A stretch of 43,797 nt of DNA from Actinomycetota bacterium (GTDB taxonomy: Bacteria; Actinomycetota; Rubrobacteria; Rubrobacterales; Rubrobacteraceae), in assembly GCA_004563715.1 (NCBI GenBank), contig SIRX01000098.1:1-43797 (forward strand), written 5' to 3'. The notes beneath the pieces were generated by a model. That model did no database searches. It was not told the DNA's origin and saw nothing but the letters and a program-made list of their open reading frames with translations. The position numbers and the translations under genes were made by a program. Shown piece after piece: positions 4,786-6,020 of this stretch; positions within the stretch are counted from its first letter, which is position 1; the number at the start of each line of letters is the position of its first letter.

Positions 4786-5599
4786 ATGGCGCTCACCGTT
4801 GGAAGCGGGCCGTTCGGAACAAAGGGCCGGGGCGAGTTCAACTTCGACCCGGGGATGCTAAAAGCCCACACCCTCTACTTCGAGGAATCGCCCAAAAGGG
4901 TGCGGGCCGTCTTCAACGGGACGGTCGTCGCCGACAGCAACCGCGTGAAGATGCTGCACGAGACCGGCCAGCTGCCGGTCTACTACTTTCCAGAGAGAGA
5001 CCTGGATCAGGAGTACCTGGAGAAGACGGATCACACCACCCACTGCCCGTTCAAGGGGGACGCGGCATACTGGTCGGTCCGGGTTGGCGACCGGGTGGCC
5101 GAGAACGCCGTCTGGGGCTACCCGGAGCCGCTGCCCGAGGCCCCGCCGCTCGCCGGGTACGCGGCCTTCTACTTCGACGCGATGGACCGCTGGCTGGAGG
5201 AGGACGAGGAGATCTCCGGCCACCCCCGCGATCCTTACCACCGGGTAGACGTCCGGGCCAGCTCCCGGCGGGTCGAGGTTTCCGTGAACGGAGAGAGGGT
5301 CGCCACGACCGACCGACCGATGAGACCGACCGATGATCCTCTTCGAGACCGGCCTGCCCCCGCGCTACTACGTCCCGCCCGAGGACGTGGACGCATCCCG
5401 GCTCGTCCCCAGCGATGGGCGCACCCACTGCCCCTACAAAGGCTCCACCACGTACTGGTCCGTCCGAACGGCGGGTGGCACCGCCGAGGACGTAGCCTGG
5501 AGCTACCCGGAGCCCCTGCCGGAGGCCGCGAAGGTTGCGGGCTACCTGTGCTTTCTCGGAGAGGGCGTCGAGGCGAAGGTCGACGGCGAGCCAGTTTAG
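4786..5599 (+). pseudogene. two-domain DUF427 (NTP_transf_9) protein, frameshifted by a 13-bp tandem duplication
   Basis: The gene encodes two DUF427 units. The first (ATG 4786, ribosome site AAAGGAG) contains HTLYFEESPKRVRAVFNG, then THCPFKGDAAYWSVRVGD and WGYPEPLPEAPPLAGYAAFY. The second repeats the pattern: ILFETGLPPRYYVPPEDV, THCPYKGSTTYWSVRT, WSYPEPLPEAAKVAGYLCFL. They are in different frames: frame one runs on to 5679 as arginine-rich nonsense, while the second unit ends at TAG 5597-5599. The switch lies in two tandem copies of GACCGACCGATGA (5311-5336); deleting one copy restores one continuous frame reading TTDRPMILFETG. An ATG at 5333 inside the second copy could start the second unit alone. 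DUF427 has no firmly assigned function. The frameshift could be a true mutation or a sequencing or assembly error. Confidence 0.8.
5311..5336. repeat. 13-bp perfect tandem duplication (2 copies)
   Basis: GACCGACCGATGA occurs at 5311-5323 and again at 5324-5336, directly preceded by an extra GACC. Thirteen is not a multiple of three, so the extra copy shifts the frame in the DUF427 gene. The short internal GACC repeats make strand slippage an easy origin. Confidence 0.95.
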
Positions 5600-5621
5600 G
5601 CTTTTCCGGGATCAGAGACGA

Positions 5622-5651
5622 AAAAGCCCGGAGCCTGGAGGCTCCGGGCTT
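5622..5651. terminator. bidirectional rho-independent terminator
   Basis: A perfect 13-bp stem (5622-5634 with 5639-5651) around a TGGA loop, flanked by A and T runs on both sides. It lies between the converging DUF427 and IscA/HesB-type genes and can serve both strands. The spurious extension of the first DUF427 frame runs through it, which supports the frameshift reading. Confidence 0.9.
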
Positions 5652-5675
5652 TCTTATCTGCTCCGGTGCTGAGGT

Positions 5676-6020
5676 CTAGCAGGTAAAGGAGCTGCCGCAG
5701 CCGCAGCCGCCCTGGACGTTGGGGTTGTTGACCGCGAAGCCGGCGCCCATGAGGCCGTCCACGTAGTCGAACTCGCTGCCCATAATGTAGGGGACGCTCA
5801 TGGCGTCTATAAGCACCTTGACGCCCTTCTCCTCGATGACCTCGTCGTCGTCGTTGACCTCGTCGTCGAAGTAGATCGAGTACTGGAACCCGGAGCAACC
5901 GCCGGGCCGCACGCCGATGCGGAGCGCGAGGTCTTCCTCGCCTTCCTGCGCCATGAGGGCCTTGACCTTCTCGGCCGCGTTGTCCGTCATGGATATGATG
6001 GTGGCCTGCTTCTGATCCAT
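5676..6020 (-). CDS. HesB/IscA-type iron-sulfur cluster assembly protein
   Basis: A 114-residue A-type carrier protein, which takes a nascent Fe-S cluster from the scaffold and delivers it to apo-enzymes. The three cluster-binding cysteines are seen: one in GVRPGGCSGFQYSIYF and two in GGCGCGSSFTC at the C-terminus. This spacing is the family signature (ErpA/IscA/SufA). I chose the ATG at 6018-6020 because GGGAGG sits 5 bases before it; a GTG two codons upstream (6024-6026) is possible but overlaps that ribosome site. No other isc or suf gene is adjacent. The gene converges on the DUF427 pseudogene and shares its terminator. Confidence 0.9.
   Translation of the reverse strand: MDQKQATIISMTDNAAEKVKALMAQEGEEDLALRIGVRPGGCSGFQYSIYFDDEVNDDDEVIEEKGVKVLIDAMSVPYIMGSEFDYVDGLMGAGFAVNNPNVQGGCGCGSSFTC

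Follow-up and report, generated by a model that had tools for sequence, protein, structure and literature searches.

Does the DUF427 gene that starts at position 4786 of this window still encode a two-domain protein, and what is to be made of the short repeat inside it? The window is the whole 43,797-nucleotide stretch of Rubrobacteraceae DNA that was analysed, and within this two-domain gene it carries two perfect, adjacent 13-base units (GACCGACCGATGA; 5311–5323 and 5324–5336). What is seen is either a frameshift allele of an ordinary kind or an error of assembly. Probably, 13 bases were recently duplicated in tandem by chance, which introduced a frameshift into a conserved two-domain DUF427 gene of this Rubrobacteraceae bacterium and left an allele with lost or reduced function.

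A 13-base tandem duplication inside a two-domain DUF427 gene

A first-pass annotation had noticed the tandem duplication at 5311–5336, and its boundaries proved exact. The two units are identical and the identity does not extend past their ends; position 5310 differs from 5323, and 5337 from 5324. The main frame runs from ATG 4786 to the stop at 5677–5679, and the remainder of domain 2 lies in the +1 frame, which stays open only between 5324 and its stop at 5597. The features of the locus are as follows.

4786..5310, + strand: intact 5' part (residues 1–175), with a complete DUF427 domain 1, the linker and the opening strands of domain 2; PF04248 120 bits, positions 1–91 of 93
5311..5323, + strand: repeat copy 1; the main frame reads the native residues DRPM, and the +1 frame has a TGA stop at 5321–5323
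5324..5336, + strand: repeat copy 2; the main frame is shifted, the open +1 frame begins, and ATG 5333 is included
5333..5599, + strand: out-of-frame remainder of domain 2, 88 codons plus stop, with Pfam positions 1–17 of 93 missing; PF04248 100.7 bits, positions 18–91
4786..5679, + strand: reading frame as it stands from ATG 4786; of its 297 codons about 179 are native and 118 frameshifted, and it runs past the native stop
5623..5652, unstranded: hairpin with a 13-bp stem, a possible terminator, where the DUF427 gene and the iron-sulphur assembly gene converge; the fold of 5612–5672 is at −30.2 kcal/mol

The PF04248 (DUF427) model matches both pieces far above its curated cut-off of 22.1 bits. 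A six-frame search extends the domain 2 piece to Pfam positions 14–91; the start of the domain sits in the other frame, and no single frame of the window holds a complete domain 2. The start codon at 4786 has a good ribosome-binding site, with a pairing energy to the 16S end of −8.2 kcal/mol.

The position of the break was examined on the AlphaFold model of L003, a relative whose gene is intact (not of the window protein itself), built from 31 of the 80 relatives described below and having a mean pLDDT of 88.3. The break corresponds to residues 176–179 of this model, between strands 170–175 and 179–183. Judged from the model, it falls within domain 2, past the first strands of that domain, and is neither in the linker nor between the domains. 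The first-pass picture of two domains joined in one frame by removal of one repeat unit is thus partly retained: the duplication does break a one-frame two-domain gene, but the break is inside the second domain rather than between the two.

A solved DUF427 protein from Rhodobacter sphaeroides (3DJM) matches window domain 1 in sequence (E 1e-11) and the L003 model in fold, with a TM-score of 0.85–0.93 according to target length. It differs in having a single domain, and its function is not assigned. One report (PMC4287342), in its available part, assigns DUF427, a domain of unknown function, to the beta-tent fold and describes it as lacking the zinc site.

Relatives encode both domains in one frame

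Relatives were sought in one genome per species. The search confirmed 209, of which 80 were kept, and the frame, join, conserved-column and repeat counts use all 80. Both DUF427 domains are in a single frame in every one of them (80/80). The distance from residue 175 to the Met codon at 5333 is 22 nt in the window versus 9 nt (three residues) in each relative, and the excess of 13 nt is therefore one repeat unit. No length variation at the join was seen among the 80 relatives, which are other species and not strains, and in the 50 nt that surround the join none of them (0/80) shows perfect tandem repetition with a period above 5.

The family search gave a consistent result. Tandem-domain DUF427 genes are present in 27 of the 38 other genomes (28 pairs), and every pair is in one open frame; adjacent DUF427 matches were paired by reading the match table, which contains no such pair for the other 11 genomes. 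Widening the search to the order added nothing to the 39 genomes of the family search, and the genus is represented by this genome alone. No independent copies of the locus were found among viral contigs. The earlier claim that the duplication disrupts an otherwise one-frame gene is borne out by these comparisons. The case named as refuting it, relatives that normally encode two separate one-domain proteins, is excluded, both by the 80 relatives and by the tandem-domain family genomes (27/27 single-frame). The proposed copy-number comparison, carried out here across species, likewise found the single-copy spacing throughout.

The window gene is therefore like the tandem-domain DUF427 (NTP_transf_9, PF04248) genes of Rubrobacteraceae and other Actinomycetota in its domains, their order, their spacing (bar the 13 nt) and its conserved positions, and unlike them in that its frame is broken inside domain 2. 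An annotation pipeline would call it either one protein of 297 residues whose tail is spurious or two proteins, whereas the relatives encode one intact two-domain protein, and caution is warranted.

Gene neighbourhoods were also compared. The upstream response-regulator-like and NUDIX genes adjoin the DUF427 gene in 2 of the 80 relatives and so speak for orthology there; in the examined DNA of the other 78 they were not found. The convergent iron-sulphur gene lies beside the DUF427 gene in none of the 80, within the DNA examined.

Two further observations concern DUF427 copy number. One family genome has two tandem-domain DUF427 genes (G036:C102:4475-5119 and G036:C132:18042-18698), with one second-domain match being weak at 61.8 bits. 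The genome studied here has a further, single-domain DUF427 gene at G000:C175:44941-45216 (L081), in an open frame of 177 codons and with a score of 124.3 bits.

Conserved positions and the age of the break

With conservation in at least 95% of the 80 relatives as the threshold, 52 columns qualify, and the window keeps every one of them: 36 ahead of the break and 16 beyond it. Substitution patterns were compared using 17 of the 80 relatives (L001–L017). On the domain 1 side, pN/pS is 0.438 versus 0.369 among intact genes; on the domain 2 side it is 0.567 versus 0.452. The ratio is raised a little, and to a similar extent, on both halves and so gives no clear sign of relaxed selection after the break. 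On the domain 2 side the terminal branch makes up 0.716 of a total of 6.14, compared with 0.306 of 3.89 on the domain 1 side, and the somewhat long domain 2 branch could reflect some relaxation. From these sequence comparisons, the break is most likely recent, or not real.

If it is not real, the strain would have an intact gene, the second copy having come from an error in sequencing or assembly. The fully intact conserved positions on either side of the break and the intact genes of all 80 relatives examined fit such an error, as does the draft state of the genome (176 contigs, estimated contamination 2.5%). Against it, a perfect 13-base duplication is an unusual kind of short-read error, and, by codon composition, most of the window's other large reading frames appear undamaged. 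We regard an error as possible but on balance unlikely, and favour a genuine frameshift allele.

The second domain as a possible separate product

The frame opened by ATG 5333 could in principle split the gene into two working proteins. Its 88 codons score 100.7 bits against PF04248 with their conserved positions intact, and the first-pass annotation had suggested that the second copy creates this ATG and that domain 2 might still be made from it. Neither suggestion fared well. Both repeat copies carry an ATG, and the residue at the position of ATG 5333 is Met in 17 and Lys in 32 of the 80 intact relatives, so that the codon position is inherited and the ATG is not new in any functional sense. 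A protein started there would begin at Pfam position 18 of 93 and lack positions 1–17; on the model of the intact relative L003, it would be without strands 154–158, 162–167 and 170–175. There is also no clear ribosome-binding site. The 16S-end pairing upstream of ATG 5333, at −2.7 kcal/mol against −8.2 kcal/mol at the gene's own start, is no better than typical: of the 311 plus-strand ATGs tested, 60% pair at least as strongly. Moreover, the upstream frame has no stop near 5333, which re-initiation would need. A split into two functional proteins is accordingly judged very improbable.

The two frames might instead be joined by a programmed +1 ribosomal frameshift after 5324, since neither frame 0 nor the +1 frame meets a stop over 5324–5596. 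However, the arrangement is present in 0/80 relatives, and, by inspection only, the start of the overlap has neither a stop codon nor an obvious slippery site. We consider programmed frameshifting extremely unlikely.

Origin of the duplication

On the favoured reading of a chance duplication, the second unit would have arisen by replication slippage, perhaps aided by the GACC-rich run at the site. The absence of flanking identity beyond the unit ends weakens a simple slippage model. End-joining was considered as another source and is not favoured, because a search of the genome gave no Ku gene (PF02735). A target-site duplication that a since-lost insertion element left behind would be a further conceivable source.

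To place the repeat against chance, perfect primitive tandem duplications of period 13–30 were counted in a sample made up of the window and 20 further stretches (in total about 11% of the genome; 776 N removed before the count, periodic units filtered). Five were present in 380,454 bases, the window included, and none in any of five order-3 Markov simulations of the same length, which keep the 3-base context. Short tandem duplications thus exceed composition chance in this genome, and the one at 5311–5336 is not unique. Two of the other four have units of 15 bases (a multiple of 3), one of 13 and one of 16. Among the three viewed in gene context (the period-15 pair aside), only 5311–5336 breaks a gene. 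The other 13-base repeat (L131, 768–793) and the 16-base repeat (L141, 9983–10014) are neither of them clearly within a gene.

A close likeness is to the short-duplication loss-of-function alleles of Xenorhabdus lrp, in which an adjacent duplication likewise lies within the gene. According to the available part of that report, three of 25 mutations were tandem duplications; they span 26–116 bp and were seen in cultures, whereas the window duplication is of 13 bp and known from one assembly (PMC6786866). No comparable 13-bp case was found in the literature searched.

A repeat of this kind could also act as a phase-variation switch, loss or gain of a copy turning the two-domain protein on or off, as the first-pass annotation had proposed. 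The repeat lies within a coding frame and its unit length is not a multiple of three, as in repeat-driven phase variation; with two perfect copies side by side, one could physically be lost with precision. Precise deletion at a 38-bp direct repeat in Mycobacterium smegmatis is given as about 6e-6 in the available part of one study (PMC3519483), and tandem-repeat copy number at M. tuberculosis promoters is reported to be phase-variable in the accessible portion of another (PMC12817950); both speak for a switch. Unlike in repeat-driven phase variation, however, the window has two copies only and no copy-number variation is observed among relatives. No such repeat and no variation in length at the join occurs in the 80 relatives, which leaves a switch without support. 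In Xenorhabdus lrp, the consulted part of the report gives zero genetic reversions among phenotypic reversions of eight isolates, with the duplication carriers unspecified (PMC6786866), a further point against it. A phase-variation switch is thus very unlikely. The specific form of a minimal two-copy switch, in which the duplication is a reversible OFF state and cells recover the two-domain protein by losing exactly one unit with appreciable frequency, seems to us scarcely plausible.

Predicted fate of the product

If the frameshift allele is real, translation from 4786 would yield a complete domain 1 and the first strands of domain 2, followed by about 118 unrelated residues. The ribosome in the shifted frame would pass the native stop and read through the hairpin at 5623–5652. 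Because this frame overruns the hairpin and its next stop is at 5677–5679, a transcript ended at the hairpin would have no in-frame stop. The product of such a stop-less transcript may be cleared by tmRNA, and a tmRNA gene is present in the genome. Domain 1 might still fold; domain 2 would be lost. A real allele would suggest that the domain 2 half was dispensable under the sampling or culture conditions.

The hairpin was not listed as a terminator by a consensus scan. A stretch resembling it in sequence is found in another family genome at G001:C13:23948-23982, where query positions 919–951 (window 5618–5650) are 94% identical; the DUF427 pair of that genome lies elsewhere, on C72.
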